Of a stretch of 64,000 nt of DNA, positions 7,873-16,309 are shown piece by piece. A program made the position numbers and the translations under genes. The stretch is from positions 497,501 to 561,500 of the forward strand of contig NZ_CP050440.1 in assembly GCF_011769525.1 (NCBI RefSeq), written 5' to 3'. The notes under the pieces were generated by a model. It saw nothing but the letters and a program-made list of their open reading frames with translations, was not told the origin of the DNA and searched no databases. This DNA comes from Tolypothrix sp. PCC 7910 (GTDB taxonomy: Bacteria > Cyanobacteriota > Cyanobacteriia > Cyanobacteriales > Nostocaceae). Position 1 is the first letter of the stretch, and every line of letters starts with the position of its first letter.

Positions 7873-10800
7873 TTATTTCCACCATCGTCCTACATCCATA
7901 ATTGCACGCCAAACCTCTACCGTTGCAGGTTCGCCACCTAATGCAAAGATAACCGGAAACAATACCTTGATATCCTGCAGCAAATTAGGGCGAGTGCGAA
8001 CAGATAACTGATGAAGGGTATCTTGCCAAAGTGGAAAAAGTATGGCGGATGGCATTTGTGACAGATCGAAAGCTAAGGCACTGAGGGAATTGGTGCGATA
8101 ATACTCATTATCAATTGCCCTAGCAGCAGCGAGTGCTTCTGGTAATACCTCTGGTAGTTTGTCTGCTAACTCACTGAGGGCATCGGCGCGATCAGAATCA
8201 TCCTCAATTGCCCTGGCTGTAGCAAGTGCTTCTGGTAAAATTTGTGGTAGTTTTTGAACTAAGGCACTGAGGGCATGGGCACGATAACGGTTATCCTGAA
8301 TCTCTCTAGCAGCAGTAAGGACTTCTGGTAATAATTCTGGTGGTAGTTTCTCAGCTAATTCACTATGCACACGAGAAGACTCATTCTGAATCGCTTCGGT
8401 AGCAGTAATAGCTGCTGGCACAACTTCTGGTAGTCTTTGGGCTAAGGCAATCAAAACCGCAGCACGAGAATAGTCATCCTGAGTTTCTCTAACTGCAGCA
8501 AGGGCTTCTGGCAAAACTTCTGGTAGTTTCTCTACTAAAGCTATCAAAGGATGGGCGCGCTCGTAATGATCCTGAATTTTCCGAGCGATCGCTAGGACTT
8601 CTGGTAATAATTCTGGCGGTAGTTTCTCGGCTAATTCACTTAAACGATGACCACGACAAGACTCATCCTCAATAGCCTCGGTAGTAGCAATAGCTTCGGG
8701 CAAAAGTTCTGGTAATCTTTGGGCTAAGGCAATCAAAACCGCAGCACGATAATAGTTATCCTGAGTTTCTCTAGCCGCAGTCAGGGCTTCTGGCAGTAGT
8801 TTTGGCGGTAGTTTCTCTACTAAAGGTATCAAAACTTCAGCACGAGTCATTCCATCCTCAATCTCTCTGGCAGCAGCAATAGCTTCGGGCAAAACCTCTG
8901 GTAGTTTCTGGGCTAAGGCCATCAACACCTGAGCACGATAATACTCATCCTCAATTGCCACAGCAGCAGCAAAAGCTTCTGGCAACAACTCTGGTGGCAG
9001 TTTGTCTGCTAAGGCACTCAAGGCTTTGGTAAGATAATACTCATCCTCAATTGTCACAGCAGCAGCAAAAGCTTCTGGCAACAACTTTGGTGGCAGGTTG
9101 TCTGCTAAGGCACTCAAGGCTATGGCACGATTCCGCTCCTTCCCAAGTGCTATAGCAGCAGCAAGAGATCCTGGCAACAACTCTGGTGGCAGGTTGTCTG
9201 CTAAGGCACTCAAGGCATCGGTACGATCATTCTCATCCCTAATTTCCCTGGCAGCAGCAAGTGCTTCTGGCAACAAGTCTGGTGGCAGTTTGTCTGCTAA
9301 GGCATTCAAGGCATCGGCACGATCATCCTCATCCCTAATTTCCCTGGCAGCAGCAAGAGCTTCTGGCAACAACTCTGGTGGCAGTTTGCCTGCTAAGGCA
9401 CTCAAGGCATCAGCACAATGACCCTCATTCCCAAGTGCCCTGGCAGCAGCAAGGGCTTCTGGCAATACTTCTGGCAGTTTGTCTGCTAAGGCACGCAAGG
9501 CTTTGGCACGATAATACTCATCCCCAATCGCCCTGGCAACAGCAACAGCTTCTGGTAATACTTCTGGTAGTTTATCTGCTAAGGCACTCAAGGCTTTGGC
9601 ACGATAATACTCATGCGGAATAGCCCTGGCAACAGCAAGGGCTTCTGGCAATACTTCTGGCAGTTTATCTGCTAAGGCACTCAAGGCTTTGGCACGAGAA
9701 TACTCATCCCGAATCGCCTTGGCAACAGCAACAGCTTCTGGCAACAACTCTGGTGGCAGTTTATCTGTTAAGGCACTCAAGGCTTTGGCACGATTCCACT
9801 CATCCCGAATCGCCCTGGCAACAGCAAGGGTTTCTGGCAATACTTCTGGCAGTTTATCTGCTAAGGCACTCAAGCCTTGGGCACGATAATACTCATCCCA
9901 AATTGCCCTGGCAACAGCAAGGGCTTCTGGTAATACTTCTGGCAGTTTGCCTGCTAAGGCACTCAAGGCATAGGTACGATAATACTCATTCCGAGCCACC
10001 TTAGCGGCGGTGAGGGCTTCTGTCAACAACTCTGGTGGCAGTTTATCTGCTAAGGCATTAAAGGCATCGGCACAATAATACTCATCCCGAATCACCCTAG
10101 CGGCGGTGAGGGCTTCTTTTAACAACTCTGGTGGCAGTTTATCTGCTAAGGCACTCAAGCCTTGGGCACGATAATACTTATCCCGAATTGCCCTGGTAAC
10201 AGCAAGAGCTGCTAGCAACAACTCTGGTGGTAGTTTATCTGCTGAGGCACTCAAGGCATCGGCACGATAATACTCATCCCAAATCGCCCTAGCGGCGGTG
10301 AGGGCTTCTTTTAACAACTCTGGTGGCAGTTTATCTGCTAAGGCACTCAAGACTTGGGCACGATCATACTCATTCCCAAGTGTCCTGGCAGCAGCAAGTG
10401 CTTCTTTTAACAACTCTGGTGGCAGTTTGTCTGCTAAGGCACTCAAGGCATCGGCACGATAATTCTCATCTCGAATCGTCCTGACAGCAGCAAGTGCTTC
10501 TTTTAACAACTCTGGTGGTAGTTTGTCTGCTAAGGCACTCAAGGCATCGGCACGATGATACTCATTCCCAAGTGCCCTGGCAGCAGCAAGTGCTTCTGGT
10601 AATACTTCTTTTAGTTTGTCTGCTAAGACACTCAAGGCTTGGGCACGATCATTCTCATCCTGAATCGCCCTGGCAGCAGCAAGTGCTTTTTGCAGTGCTA
10701 ATTGTTGAAGATTTAGTGGCAGATAATTGACTAGTTTTGCCAGTGCGTCTATTTTCTCTTCTAGCTTTGGTTTTTGCAGGGCGTAAGCTAGTCCTTGTTC

Positions 10801-12729
10801 GGGAGTCCACTTCTTGTTTTTGACCAAAGCAAGTAATAAATCTCTTGGTAAATTAGCTGCCAAACTATTCAGGGATGTAGTAATCAAAGCATAGCGACAC
10901 TGCAAACTTAATGTTGATACAGTCCAATTCCTTTGGGCTAATTCCCAAGCACGAGATATATCTGTGATGTAACCCCCTGTTTGTGCCAATTGTTCCCGCA
11001 CTTCAAACCAGCCATTATTCCCAGTTGCCGACTCCTCCCACAATAAAGAGTGAATCTCTGCAAAAAGTCCCGCCTTCTCCAAATGCCAAACTAAATGCTG
11101 ATGAATGTAACCATCATCAGGTAGTGTATGCCATAAATTATTCTGGGTTTTCTGCCGATATTTCTCCACAACAGCAGCGTGAGCATCAGTAAGATTTAAA
11201 CCTAACCCTGGCAAATCTCCTGTCCGCTTTGGCTGTGGCGCAGCAGTTAACAAATTACAGGCTAAATCATGGAATAAGTCATGTAACCGATAGGTAGGCG
11301 TACCATCAGCAAGGGGGACTCCTGTTAATAGCAATGCCTTATTCCGTAAATATTGCAACATCTTGGCAGCATCACGCTCATCCATTTCCCACAGCGTTGC
11401 CGCCATCATCTTATTAATGTTGACATCCTCCGGCAACACCCCCAACCAAGCAAAATGCTGTTGCTTTTCTTGAGGCATTCGCTTGACACTCAAGTTTAAT
11501 GATGCGGTTAAACTCAAGCGTTTTAAACTCGCCTCATCGGTAATTTCCTCTGCTTCCGGTCGGTCAAAACTGGTTAATCTGGCTACCTCTTGCCGAATAT
11601 CCGCCAATAGTTCATCCCAAGTCGTACCGCTAGCAACTTCGGCGGCTGCGAGTTCCAATGCTAGGGGGAGATAACCAACACCTTGGGCTAAATTTTTGGC
11701 TGACTGACGTTCTGCACCTGTAATTTCCCGTCTTAATTTCTTCGTCAGCAATTCCATCGCCTGCTCTGGTTTCATGATATCCAGGCTGTAGGTGCTGGCT
11801 GCTAAGGCATCAGCAATTGCCCCTTCACGAGTTGTTACTAAAACCTGACACCGCACCCCACCCACATTAAACGCTTGTGCATCTTGCGTATTCCATGCAT
11901 CATCTACCACCAGCAACACCGCTTTGTCATAAAGCAGCGTCCGTAAATGGTTGGTAGTTGCTTCTACACTGGTAGGTTTAAAGCTATAGTCTCCTAATGC
12001 TTGCACCCAGCCACTAACTAAAGACAGCACATCAGGCTGTTGACCTAATGTAGCCCACAAAATACCATCACAAAACCGAGTTTGGATTTCTGCATCTACT
12101 GCTAAAGCTGCTGCTAAAGTCGATTTACCCACAGAACCCAAACCGTGAATCGCCGTAATTACCAAAGTGCGATTATCTTCTGTGAGCAGGCGAGTCTTTA
12201 AATCATCGCTGTATTCTGGGCGTTCAACAAAGTGTGCAGGTAAAGGAGGGGCTTGAAATATCGCCAGCTTAGTTTGGGGTACAACAGCAATACCCTCATA
12301 TTCAGGGTAATTCGCTTCTAGTTGTGGAGATTTCTGAGATTTGTTGCTTTGCCATACCTTATCAAATCGTTTCAGGTTCTTTTCTTTATCCTTTGACCAT
12401 AGCTTTAATGTAAAGTGCCACTCATCAGAACCCTGAGTTTGAATCCGGTTATCTTCCAGAATTTTGACAAAATCCTTGAGTAAATTCAGCGCTTCGCGGA
12501 TTTGCGTTTTAGTTAACTTACCTGGATATTCGTCTTTTAGCGTCAACAACTCCAAAGCCACCAGAGTTGTTTTTATAGTCAGCTTGGGGTTAGCGCTATC
12601 TGCTTCTTTCCAGTCGTACTCAATATTAAAATTATCTTCCGCAACTTCCCCAACCGCAAAACCGAGCAACGCCGCCAACAGACGCTTAACTCGCTTTTGA
12701 ATCTGAGGGACGTAAGTAGTTTTTGGCAT
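7873..12729 (-). CDS. NB-ARC (STAND) NTPase with about 28 C-terminal 31-32-residue repeats
   Basis: A 1618-residue signal-transduction ATPase. Residues 1-130 form an unassigned N-terminal domain (...LKLWSKDKEKNLKRFDKVWQ) often found before cyanobacterial NB-ARC modules. NB-ARC follows: P-loop GLGSVGKST 196-204, Walker B VLLVVDDAW 271-279, sensor LVTTREG 297-303, then winged-helix sequence to about residue 490. A linker leads to about 28 tandem units with consensus LLPEALAAARAIRDEYYRAD / ALSALADKLPPE, each probably two helices. STAND proteins oligomerise on ligand recognition, and repeat domains are the usual sensor. A role in defence or cell death is inference. The gene has no co-oriented neighbour except the antitoxin remnant. 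Confidence 0.85.
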   Translation of the reverse strand: MPKTTYVPQIQKRVKRLLAALLGFAVGEVAEDNFNIEYDWKEADSANPKLTIKTTLVALELLTLKDEYPGKLTKTQIREALNLLKDFVKILEDNRIQTQGSDEWHFTLKLWSKDKEKNLKRFDKVWQSNKSQKSPQLEANYPEYEGIAVVPQTKLAIFQAPPLPAHFVERPEYSDDLKTRLLTEDNRTLVITAIHGLGSVGKSTLAAALAVDAEIQTRFCDGILWATLGQQPDVLSLVSGWVQALGDYSFKPTSVEATTNHLRTLLYDKAVLLVVDDAWNTQDAQAFNVGGVRCQVLVTTREGAIADALAASTYSLDIMKPEQAMELLTKKLRREITGAERQSAKNLAQGVGYLPLALELAAAEVASGTTWDELLADIRQEVARLTSFDRPEAEEITDEASLKRLSLTASLNLSVKRMPQEKQQHFAWLGVLPEDVNINKMMAATLWEMDERDAAKMLQYLRNKALLLTGVPLADGTPTYRLHDLFHDLACNLLTAAPQPKRTGDLPGLGLNLTDAHAAVVEKYRQKTQNNLWHTLPDDGYIHQHLVWHLEKAGLFAEIHSLLWEESATGNNGWFEVREQLAQTGGYITDISRAWELAQRNWTVSTLSLQCRYALITTSLNSLAANLPRDLLLALVKNKKWTPEQGLAYALQKPKLEEKIDALAKLVNYLPLNLQQLALQKALAAARAIQDENDRAQALSVLADKLKEVLPEALAAARALGNEYHRADALSALADKLPPELLKEALAAVRTIRDENYRADALSALADKLPPELLKEALAAARTLGNEYDRAQVLSALADKLPPELLKEALTAARAIWDEYYRADALSASADKLPPELLLAALAVTRAIRDKYYRAQGLSALADKLPPELLKEALTAARVIRDEYYCADAFNALADKLPPELLTEALTAAKVARNEYYRTYALSALAGKLPEVLPEALAVARAIWDEYYRAQGLSALADKLPEVLPETLAVARAIRDEWNRAKALSALTDKLPPELLPEAVAVAKAIRDEYSRAKALSALADKLPEVLPEALAVARAIPHEYYRAKALSALADKLPEVLPEAVAVARAIGDEYYRAKALRALADKLPEVLPEALAAARALGNEGHCADALSALAGKLPPELLPEALAAAREIRDEDDRADALNALADKLPPDLLPEALAAAREIRDENDRTDALSALADNLPPELLPGSLAAAIALGKERNRAIALSALADNLPPKLLPEAFAAAVTIEDEYYLTKALSALADKLPPELLPEAFAAAVAIEDEYYRAQVLMALAQKLPEVLPEAIAAAREIEDGMTRAEVLIPLVEKLPPKLLPEALTAARETQDNYYRAAVLIALAQRLPELLPEAIATTEAIEDESCRGHRLSELAEKLPPELLPEVLAIARKIQDHYERAHPLIALVEKLPEVLPEALAAVRETQDDYSRAAVLIALAQRLPEVVPAAITATEAIQNESSRVHSELAEKLPPELLPEVLTAAREIQDNRYRAHALSALVQKLPQILPEALATARAIEDDSDRADALSELADKLPEVLPEALAAARAIDNEYYRTNSLSALAFDLSQMPSAILFPLWQDTLHQLSVRTRPNLLQDIKVLFPVIFALGGEPATVEVWRAIMDVGRWWK
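8050..10705 (-). repeat. Tandem 93/96-bp coding repeats inside the NB-ARC gene
   Basis: Roughly 28 units alternate between 93 and 96 bp (31 or 32 codons). On the plus strand the recurring words are TCTGCTAAGGCACTCAAGG and AACAACTCTGGTGGCAGTTT. Central units (about 9000-10600) are nearly identical at DNA level, which suggests recent amplification or gene conversion; the units nearest the C-terminus (8050-8900) are more divergent. Confidence 0.9.
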
Positions 12730-15006: not shown

Positions 15007-15041
15007 TTAACCATTCCCCATTCCCCATTCCCCATTCCCCA
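15007..15041. repeat. Heptamer repeat (CCCCATT)
   Basis: About four tandem copies of CCCCATT between the converging hydrolase and aroF genes, ending at the aroF stop codon. Confidence 0.8.
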
Positions 15042-15914
15042 TTACGCCGCCGCACAAAAAATAGGGGCAGATTTTACACCCACCCCTAAATCTGAAATAT
15101 TGCGTCCAACTGCTGTGGCTACAGGCTTGAGGCTTGCAACCAAATTCACCATGTCTTCTAAAGACAAAGCTTGGCGTGCATCAGATACAGATTTTTCTGG
15201 TTCTGGGTGACACTCAATAATTAAGCCATCTGCGCCACAAGCTATAGCCGCCTTAGCCATAGGTGCTACTAATTCCCGTTTACCTACGGCATGGGATGGA
15301 TCTACAATCACGGGTAAGTGAGTAATCTGCTTGAGAGCTGCTACTGCACCTAAGTCCAGTACATTGCGGGTGTAATTATCGAAGCTGCGGATACCTCGCT
15401 CACACAGCACTACATCAGGATTACCGTGACTCAAAATATATTCAGCAGCCATAACGAATTCTTCAATTGTCGCTGCTAGTCCGCGCTTGAGTAATATTGG
15501 CTTCCCAGCTTGTCCTAAAGCTTTGAGTAAATCGAAGTTTTGCATATTGCGGCTACCAATTTGCAGCATATCAGCATGAGTCGCGACTACTTCAATTTGA
15601 GCAATTGACATCACTTCTGTGACGACTAGGATATTGTAACGCGATCGCACTTTTGCCAAAACTTCTAATCCGGCTTCTCCCATACCTTGGAAAGCGTAGG
15701 GAGATGTGCGGGGTTTGTAGACACCCCCACGCAAAGCCTGTACAGGTGCAGCCGCTAACTTTTGGGCGACTGTTTCCATTTGTTCTAAGCTTTCCACTGT
15801 GCAGGGGCCACCAATAATCACTAATTCCTCACCACCGAAACTAACTGTTTCTGAGAGTTTGACAATTGTTTGGTGGCTAGGATGGGATTGAGCGGCGAGT
15901 TGAGCATTAATCAT
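15042..15914 (-). CDS. aroF: DAHP synthase (3-deoxy-7-phosphoheptulonate synthase)
   Basis: 290 residues catalysing condensation of phosphoenolpyruvate and erythrose 4-phosphate, the first step of the shikimate pathway. It is of the AroI-beta/KDO8P-synthase-like type: GGPCTVES near residue 36, LRGGVYKPRTSPYAFQG, QIGSRNMQNFDLL, LLKRG, VIVDPSHAVGKR and IIECHPEPEKS are all present. The start at 15914 is preferred over the upstream ATG at 15959 because AAGGAAA lies just before it and the extra 15 codons read through the leader terminator region. No ACT or chorismate-mutase regulatory domain is fused, so control is likely to act mainly on transcription, which fits the tandem attenuators upstream. 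Confidence 0.95.
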   Translation of the reverse strand: MINAQLAAQSHPSHQTIVKLSETVSFGGEELVIIGGPCTVESLEQMETVAQKLAAAPVQALRGGVYKPRTSPYAFQGMGEAGLEVLAKVRSRYNILVVTEVMSIAQIEVVATHADMLQIGSRNMQNFDLLKALGQAGKPILLKRGLAATIEEFVMAAEYILSHGNPDVVLCERGIRSFDNYTRNVLDLGAVAALKQITHLPVIVDPSHAVGKRELVAPMAKAAIACGADGLIIECHPEPEKSVSDARQALSLEDMVNLVASLKPVATAVGRNISDLGVGVKSAPIFCAAA

Positions 15915-15957: not shown

Positions 15958-15991
15958 AAAAAACCCGGAATCTCTCTTGTGAGTTCCGGGT
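15958..15991 (-). terminator. Attenuator terminator 2, directly before aroF
   Basis: On the minus strand ACCCGGAA (15991-15984) pairs with TTCCGGGT (15970-15963) across a 13-base loop and is followed by TTTTTT (15963-15958), 44 bases before the aroF start. The 5' arm lies within ACCCGGAACT (15991-15982), which can pair instead, over 10 perfect bases, with AGTTCCGGGT (16031-16022) at the end of leader peptide 2. Confidence 0.88.
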
Positions 15992-16019: not shown

Positions 16020-16082
16020 TTACCCGGAACTTGCTCTGGGCCAAAAGTAAAAGCTATAAAACCAGCTACCGCAATAGATCAT
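16020..16082 (-). CDS. Leader peptide 2 of aroF, MIYCGSWFYSFYFWPRASSG
   Basis: A 20-codon frame with 8 aromatic residues (3 Tyr, 3 Phe, 2 Trp), most of them in the run WFYSFYFW. AGGAG lies 12 bases before the ATG. Its last codons AGT TCC GGG T form the segment that can pair with the 5' arm of the following terminator. A ribosome that finishes the peptide would cover this segment and let the terminator form; a ribosome stalled on aromatic codons would leave it free and prevent termination. It begins only 18 bases after the U-run of terminator 1, so its transcript must have passed terminator 1. Confidence 0.85.
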   Translation of the reverse strand: MIYCGSWFYSFYFWPRASSG

Positions 16083-16100
16083 GACGACGAAATACTCCTG

Positions 16101-16133
16101 AAAAAACAAAAACCGCAGAGTTTGCTCTGCGGT
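16101..16133 (-). terminator. Attenuator terminator 1, between the two leader peptides
   Basis: On the minus strand ACCGCAGAG (16133-16125) pairs perfectly with CTCTGCGGT (16120-16112) across CAAA, followed by TTTTGTTTTTT: a strong intrinsic terminator. The 5' arm overlaps GGTGAACCGC (16138-16129), which can pair with GCGGTTCACC (16180-16171) in leader peptide 1, so the terminator and the upstream hairpin exclude each other. Confidence 0.88.
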
Positions 16134-16180
16134 TCACCTGGCGGTTTCCATTAGGAAACTATTCACCGCCGGTGAACCGC
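16129..16180 (-). promoter_or_regulatory. Antiterminator hairpin of attenuator 1
   Basis: GCGGTTCACC (16180-16171) and GGTGAACCGC (16138-16129) are exact inverse complements. Between them a nested stem pairs GTTTCC with GGAAAC and GGCG with CGCC (16140-16170). When formed, it removes the 5' arm of terminator 1. The upstream arm lies in codons 15-18 of leader peptide 1, near its stop codon. Confidence 0.8.
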
Positions 16181-16222
16181 CTTTTGCCAAAAATAAAAAT
16201 AGGATTTGTTGCTGAAAATCAT
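16163..16222 (-). CDS. Leader peptide 1 of aroF, MIFSNKSYFYFWQKAVHRR
   Basis: A 19-codon frame with 6 aromatic residues (3 Phe, 2 Tyr, 1 Trp) and the uninterrupted run YFYFW. Codons 15-18 (GCG GTT CAC CGG) contain the segment that can pair with the 5' arm region of terminator 1. The ribosome site is weak (TAAG about 7 bases before the ATG), which is the main doubt. The match in layout and in the aromatic run (SYFYFW against SFYFW) to leader peptide 2 makes chance unlikely and suggests that the two arose by duplication. Confidence 0.78.
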   Translation of the reverse strand: MIFSNKSYFYFWQKAVHRR

Positions 16223-16280
16223 TACAGTACTTAACTAGATAATTTTTGATGTAAACCGATGTAAACCTAATATAAGAGCC

Positions 16281-16309
16281 ACGATAACAGACACAGTTCC
16301 TTGCGTCAA
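16281..16309 (-). promoter_or_regulatory. Candidate promoter of the aroF leader
   Basis: On the minus strand TTGACG (16309-16304) and TATCGT (16286-16281) are 17 bases apart, placing a start near 16274. Just downstream a direct repeat GGTTTACATC (two copies, about 16247-16268) may be a regulator site. An alternative -10 box is TATATT at 16274-16269. Weak evidence. Confidence 0.35.

Follow-up and report, generated by a model that had tools for sequence, protein, structure and literature searches.

Two predicted attenuators for aromatic amino acids in series in the leader of a DAHP synthase gene of Tolypothrix sp. PCC 7910 and other Cyanobacteriia

The 5' leader of a DAHP synthase gene in Tolypothrix sp. 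PCC 7910 very probably contains two ribosome-mediated transcription attenuators in series that sense aromatic amino acids. The gene lies at 15914-15042 on the minus strand of the window (the whole 64,000-nucleotide stretch of DNA that was analysed), and two attenuator-like units precede it in the sequence. An earlier note, made from the letters of this DNA, had described a leader peptide with its own terminator at 16101-16222. Comparative sequence analysis confirmed the observation and showed its extent to be larger than first described: the unit is present by sequence and is kept in relatives. Comparison strongly supports the pair of attenuators itself. The mechanism would be of a known kind, here in a new arrangement and, within the open-access literature searched, in a new group.

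Two leader units upstream of the gene

Unit 1 starts with leader peptide 1, MIFSNKSYFYFWQKAVHRR (16163-16222, minus strand), a 19-codon ORF running from ATG to TGA that is backed by relatives and by an RNA model, R1. Its candidate sensor codons are TAT TTT TAT TTT TGG (16187-16201, minus strand), whose aromatic class is conserved with exchange among F, Y and W. The putative antiterminator 5' strand GCGGTTCACC (16171-16180, minus strand) occupies codons 15-18 within the ORF. It is the exact complement of GGTGAACCGC (16129-16138, minus strand), with which it covaries (16138-16129) and which overlaps the 5' arm of intrinsic terminator T1. T1 and its T-run (16101-16135, minus strand) were identified by sequence, terminator scan and covariation; the stem is ACCGCAGAG-CAAA-CTCTGCGGT at 16133-16112, and from there a T-rich run extends to 16101. 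The final five bases of GGTGAACCGC, ACCGC, open the T1 stem, and both the complementarity and this entry into the stem, as claimed earlier, are exact in the sequence. In the window, pairing of the leader 1 ORF tail with downstream sequence gave z = -8.95 against 60 shuffles of the tail. A short TTCAC/GTGAA hairpin, a candidate protector, is also possible in unit 1; its bases scarcely vary.

Unit 2 has the same layout. Leader peptide 2, MIYCGSWFYSFYFWPRASSG (16020-16082, minus strand; found by sequence and RNA model R2), contains the putative antiterminator strand AGTTCCGGG (16023-16031, minus strand) inside its ORF, and the complement CCCGGAACT (15982-15990, minus strand) forms most of the 5' arm of T2; both strands are supported by covariation. 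Intrinsic terminator T2 with its T-run (15958-15991, minus strand) is supported by sequence and covariation and is absent from the list given by a simple terminator scan of the window. The earlier statement that unit 1 repeats the logic of unit 2 is borne out by comparison, as ORF, terminator and upstream complement are found in both. The further suggestion of an old duplication of the leaders did not gain support. The leader 1 model has no match at leader 2 in its own genome at E values up to 10 (a first look at this search scored 150 of 2267 candidates), and the leaders are already distinct from each other in nearly all loci seen; a common origin is therefore unproven.

A promoter-like pair for the leader transcript is found at 16281-16309 on the minus strand (TTGACG - 17 nt - TATCGT, with TG ahead of the -10). 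On the scan alone it is weak, since one pair was found and 1.1 are expected in shuffled sequence; in an alignment of 29 relatives and the window, TTGAC and TGtTAt..T are kept. Judged from spacing only, transcription would start near 16274. Given its position directly upstream of leader 1 and its conserved core bases, both units and their terminators seem to lie within the gene's own leader transcript.

The leader (16225-15940) folds better than expected (z = -4.98; none of 200 shuffles was equally good). It has no Rfam match at the gathering threshold, neither to a T-box nor to another cis-regulatory RNA, and relaxing the limit to E up to 5 gave only three sub-threshold matches, every one on the opposite strand. 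The sole match in the window at the gathering threshold is a Cyano-1 RNA (RF01701) at 2325-2399 on the plus strand.

The last codons of each ORF are complementary to the 5' arm of the terminator that follows, so that antitermination would be possible with a ribosome stalled on the Phe, Tyr or Trp codons and prevented with a ribosome at the stop codon. From this layout we infer the following course. RNA polymerase would transcribe leader 1 while a ribosome translates it. With too little charged tRNA-Phe, -Tyr or -Trp available, the ribosome would stall on TAT TTT TAT TTT TGG; GCGGTTCACC would stay free, pair with the emerging GGTGAACCGC and take the base of the T1 5' arm, and the polymerase would read on. 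When aromatic amino acids are plentiful, the ribosome would reach the stop codon and cover GCGGTTCACC, and T1 would form. At leader 2 the same test would be repeated with AGTTCCGGG and CCCGGAACT, ahead of T2. The gene would be transcribed only if both T1 and T2 are passed, and the two controls should therefore multiply.

Covariation, coding features and modelled ribosome positions

Compensatory change was examined in alignments of 39 chosen leader 1 sequences and 41 chosen leader 2 sequences. In the unit 1 antiterminator (13 pairs), 92.3% of cells are paired (slid controls, 26.6-47.4%), and 21 cells show a double change against a mean of 3.8 in shuffles that ignore relatedness; columns 50/84 of the alignment display six pair types. 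The unit 2 antiterminator (11 pairs) has 90.4% of cells paired (slid controls, 5-55%) and 13 double-change cells against 2.9 in shuffles of the same kind. The T1 helix is 96.0% paired, with double changes in two of nine pairs and seven pairs invariant. The T2 helix is 95.9% paired and has 18 double-change cells (5.9 in shuffles). The number of pairs with a double change is a weak measure: its value was matched by 61 of 500 shuffles for antiterminator 1, 148 of 500 for T1, 63 of 500 for antiterminator 2 and 12 of 500 for T2. The pair types of the unit 2 antiterminator, also a weak measure, were matched by 127 of 500. By compensatory change, then, as judged against shuffles that ignore relatedness, a competing antiterminator is conserved in both units. 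Conservation of a simple terminator without the upstream complement, which the earlier note had named as the case that would speak against it, is not what is seen, as the complement covaries in both units.

An intrinsic terminator stands between each ORF and the gene. One follows leader 1 in 70/72 sampled-genome loci and 76/76 named loci, and leader 2 in 61/68 and 72/73, respectively; the shuffled controls (one mononucleotide shuffle each) had none. Not counted here, nor for spacing, coding and folding, were the leader 1 of G363, G377 and G395 (MARPAARFYGWFIKVHLE or a one-residue variant), which falls short of the filter on aromatic content, and the truncated leader 1 of G229.

The ORFs are short and rich in codons for products of the pathway whose biosynthetic gene follows, and both putative peptides carry clusters of F, Y and W. 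An in-frame ATG lies 13 to 26 codons before the stop in 147/149 leader 1 loci and 128/143 leader 2 loci. The mean number of aromatic residues in frame is 6.12 for leader 1 and 7.04 for leader 2, against 1.53-2.86 in the other frames, a contrast that is partly built in, as the ORFs were picked by aromatic content. The earlier note had called the ribosome site of leader 1 weak, and the weakness is real and conserved: SD-like 4-mers occur in 3/149 leader 1 loci versus 75/139 leader 2 loci.

These results bear on a simpler explanation, in which T1 and T2 serve simply as terminators or as spacers that shield the gene from transcription arriving from upstream, and T-rich sequence yields the ORFs as by-products. 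Both terminators are indeed strong, and Phe is readily encoded by T-rich DNA. Such by-products would hardly account for aromatic codons confined to one frame (with the reservation on ORF choice given above), for the in-frame ATG kept in nearly all leader 1 loci, for an upstream complement that covaries with the terminator arm or for a conserved promoter-like pair directly upstream of leader 1, and we consider this explanation very unlikely.

In the 72 sampled-genome loci, positions -12 to -7 before the stop of leader 1 are F, Y or W in 0.86-1.00 of sequences, and the identity among the three varies. The proposal that selection kept the peptide composition agrees with this interchange. In the leader 1 cluster the residue class seems to be under selection and not the particular residue, as would suit a sensor that reads all three charged tRNAs. 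A codon-position comparison, from which an excess at third positions was expected, yielded no classical signature of purifying selection and instead an excess at second positions in leader 1 (850, 2480 and 1679 differences at positions 1, 2 and 3, respectively; leader 2: 1488, 1638 and 1942). We read the second-position excess as exchange of TTY and TAY codons.

Leader peptides may also act as nascent chains that arrest the ribosome, or respond to a free metabolite, an example being TnaC with tryptophan. Peptides of this class are established knowledge, and the peptides described here are conserved. However, F, Y and W swap within the kept class and the residues ahead of the cluster vary. RNA pairing accounts for the conserved C-terminal residues: G459 keeps the sequence that pairs, CGGTTCAC, and reads it in another frame, so that the peptide ends in RFT instead of VHRE, which explains the VHRE and SSG motifs as consequences of pairing. 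Nascent-chain or metabolite sensing in place of tRNA charging is thus a little less probable still than plain termination. Action of the leader peptides or of short terminated RNAs in trans, for which one published case exists in the leader peptide peTrpL of Sinorhizobium (PMC7298713, as far as the available part of that paper goes), would leave the competing helices and the spacing unexplained and is the least probable of the three, although it could exist in addition.

Ribosome-mediated attenuation accommodates the spacing. Counted from the first base of the last Trp codon, a TTCRC motif begins 13 nt further on in 126/143 scored leader 1 loci, and a TCCGG-type motif 15 nt further on in 112/132 scored leader 2 loci (loci in which the simple motif is absent, 6/149 and 11/143, were not scored). 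This mostly fixed distance is consistent with a ribosome that waits at Trp and just leaves the pairing segment free.

Ribosome positions were modelled with partition functions on RNA lacking the terminator 3' arm, and the values given are mean probabilities that region 4 pairs with the ORF tail. Among sampled genomes, 69/72 leader 1 loci and 64/69 leader 2 loci were scored. With a footprint of +8 and the ribosome at the last Trp, pairing was 0.64 in unit 1 (69 loci) and 0.72 in unit 2 (64 loci); with the ribosome at the stop codon it fell to 0.03 in both units, and without a ribosome it was 0.66 and 0.57. The named loci behaved alike at +8 (units 1/2: last Trp, 0.74/0.72; stop, 0.06/0.00; no ribosome, 0.77/0.60). 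With a footprint of +11, stalled pairing in unit 1 was 0.47 in sampled loci (19/69 above 0.5) and 0.42 in named loci (0/75 above 0.5), and in unit 2 it was 0.73 and 0.72. In the window itself, unit 1 gave 0.78 stalled versus 0.00 at the stop (0.44 stalled at +11), and unit 2 gave 1.00 versus 0.00. Pairing of the ORF tail beat shuffles at z<-2 in 65/72 leader 1 loci and in only 38/68 leader 2 loci.

Full-length equilibrium folds of the window did not switch. T2 formed whichever of the three ribosome states was imposed, and under stalling the unit 1 antiterminator coexisted with a formed T1. Antitermination would therefore have to be kinetic, with the antiterminator forming first. Kinetic switching is usual for attenuators. 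As the antiterminator also tends to form without a ribosome (0.57-0.77), untranslated leaders should read through, unlike the textbook trp case. Together, the weak ribosome site of leader 1 and the fold without a ribosome predict a leaky, default-open control at T1.

Occurrence in Cyanobacteriia and the regulated enzyme

Among the named loci, the closest, with 97% protein identity, belongs to Nostoc carneum NIES-2107. There are 80 named loci in total, and L036, L043 and L081, with too little upstream DNA, were left out. Both leaders are present in 77/77 named relatives having enough upstream DNA. By pattern, leader 1 was found in 76/77 and leader 2 in 73/77; the leader 2 of L049, L091 and L099 was missed by the pattern and is visible in the upstream sequence. 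An apparent loss of leaders in Tolypothrix campylonemoides (L102) was rejected, as an assembly gap of Ns had shifted both leaders past the 700-base limit.

Covariance models R1 (leader 1) and R2 (leader 2) were run on the same sample of 194 genomes of the class, a collection that overlaps in species with that of the named relatives. R1 matched 71/194 genomes from 13 families and R2 matched 65/194, with one match per genome and model; 63 genomes were matched by both. Inspection added leader 2 in G449 and G488 and leader 1 in G396 and G474. Both leaders are thus found in 67/73 genomes of this sample that match R1 or R2. The remaining 6/73 have leader 1 only: G370, G387, G398, G417 and G427, all from family f46, and G028.

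In the f46 genomes, leader 1 is followed directly by the DAHP synthase gene. Their loci (L155, L159, L203, L206 and L209) have a single attenuator and represent a natural single-lock variant. The G028 leader (L152, G028:C48) was considered as an orphan serving another gene, and this was rejected: by eye, a deletion runs from T1 into a decaying DAHP synthase gene. Here leader 1 is followed by the interior of the decaying gene, a natural loss of the system. In G396 (L217), unit 1 is very diverged; by eye, its terminator arm is GACCCAA with TTGGGTC in place of the usual ACCGCAG, and the ORF still ends near a segment complementary to its upstream flank. Among 17 further loci that were selected by way of their protein, leader 1 stands alone in G244 and leader 2 alone in G269; the leader 1 of G229 is cut short by a premature stop, and the leader 2 of G020 has no stop after the pairing segment. 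The lineages with only leader 1 (f46 and G244) or only leader 2 (G269) make the gain from two attenuators of the same signal in series directly testable.

The gene (15042-15914, minus strand) encodes a 290-aa protein that scores above the cut-off of NCBIfam TIGR01361 and NF006421 and matches Pfam PF00793. DAHP synthase makes the precursor of exactly the three residues (Phe, Tyr and Trp) that are enriched in both peptides. A short ATTCCCC tandem array is located at the downstream end of the gene (15010-15045). The gene was present in 58/60 stretches around R1 matches, the exceptions being G028 (broken) and G454 (contig end). Close relatives of the enzyme (E 5e-128 or better, at least 72% identity) were found in 26 of 244 phylum genomes, and any homolog at E 1e-60 or better in 212 of 244. 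Among the genomes listed in both searches, a comparison that leaves out 103 genomes without an R1 match, the close enzyme and an R1 match occur together in 13, and all 15 without an R1 match are also without the close enzyme; G028 has an R1 match and no intact gene.

Upstream regions of 21 homologs 51-56% identical to the enzyme contained neither two aromatic leaders nor a comparable leader-terminator unit. In G266, outside the class, a 39-residue ORF that ends a little ahead of a weak 6-pair hairpin, some 900 bases upstream, was taken as chance. In the same genome as the window, a simple, non-exhaustive peptide scan found no convincing aromatic leader at prephenate dehydratase, prephenate dehydrogenase or two anthranilate synthase-type genes.

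A Pfam search of the window enzyme found no match to the N-terminal ferredoxin-like domain PF18152, which a paralog in the same genome (L212) has at residues 2-67. In a sequence match to solved structures, the window enzyme aligned to residues 75-336 of chain 1rzm_A (338 residues). The ferredoxin-like domain missing here carries feedback inhibition in other DAHP synthases. A wider reading, which we offer tentatively and hold to be somewhat doubtful, is that a double lock in series was kept across the class Cyanobacteriia. Its two independent readers of the same three charged tRNAs would multiply their effects and be open by default when untranslated, and they would replace, by transcription, the feedback control that is missing without the ferredoxin-like domain, while the domain-bearing paralog has no leader. 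This would suggest a division of labour between a DAHP synthase controlled by transcription and one that is, by prediction, controlled allosterically. Such a division may have practical use for making aromatic compounds in cyanobacteria.

Comparison with known leaders

Ribosome-mediated attenuation is textbook knowledge in enterobacteria and has been described in actinobacteria. The putative units share with the trp and pheA attenuators of Escherichia coli a leader ORF with regulatory codons, an intrinsic terminator, a competing antiterminator and, by prediction, a decisive ribosome position (trpL and pheL leaders are covered in the available part of PMC11802643). Unlike those, they have predicted sensor codons for all three aromatic amino acids and are arranged in tandem. 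Their putative antiterminator strand falls within the last codons of the ORF, and a stable protector hairpin could not be established. Due to these two features, the predicted outcome of an untranslated leader is read-through, unlike in trp and pheA.

One precedent is the aroR leader of aroF in Corynebacterium glutamicum, where a Phe-Tyr-Phe peptide belongs to an attenuator that precedes a DAHP synthase gene (PMC4046766, PMC11802643). The likeness is in the aromatic peptide attenuator before the same kind of gene. In the available parts of these sources, one leader is described and Trp is not among the residues named; the organism also belongs to a different phylum. A second case, the uORFC-13-1 motif of Acholeplasma, is a predicted Phe uORF with a terminator upstream of aroF (PMC8632094). 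As far as the accessible text of that source tells, it has one uORF with at least one Phe codon and is known from 24 sequences, only in Acholeplasma and environmental DNA, whereas two leaders are found here.

Two short ORFs in series control transcription of one operon in the Salmonella mgtCBR leader (PMC3641672). According to the available part of that paper, they sense different signals (ATP and proline) in an additive manner and their stem-loops are unlike intrinsic terminators; here both peptides would read the same amino acids and each unit has an intrinsic terminator. An actinobacterial survey, in the part available, reports that phenylalanine and tyrosine operons of that group are not preceded by conserved RNA structures (PMC1262725). 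In the open-access literature on cyanobacteria no such attenuator was found by title or start of abstract, partly from the best 12 of 89 hits. The arrangement described here is kept in genomes from the 13 families with R1 matches, in most cases as two successive units, and both readers appear to be tuned to the same signal.

Elsewhere in the window, the list of open reading frames includes a 1618-residue ORF at 7873-12729 on the minus strand, in which an NTPase-like stretch (GLGSVGKSTLA) is followed by a long array of repeats of about 30 residues (LPPELLPEALAAAR...).
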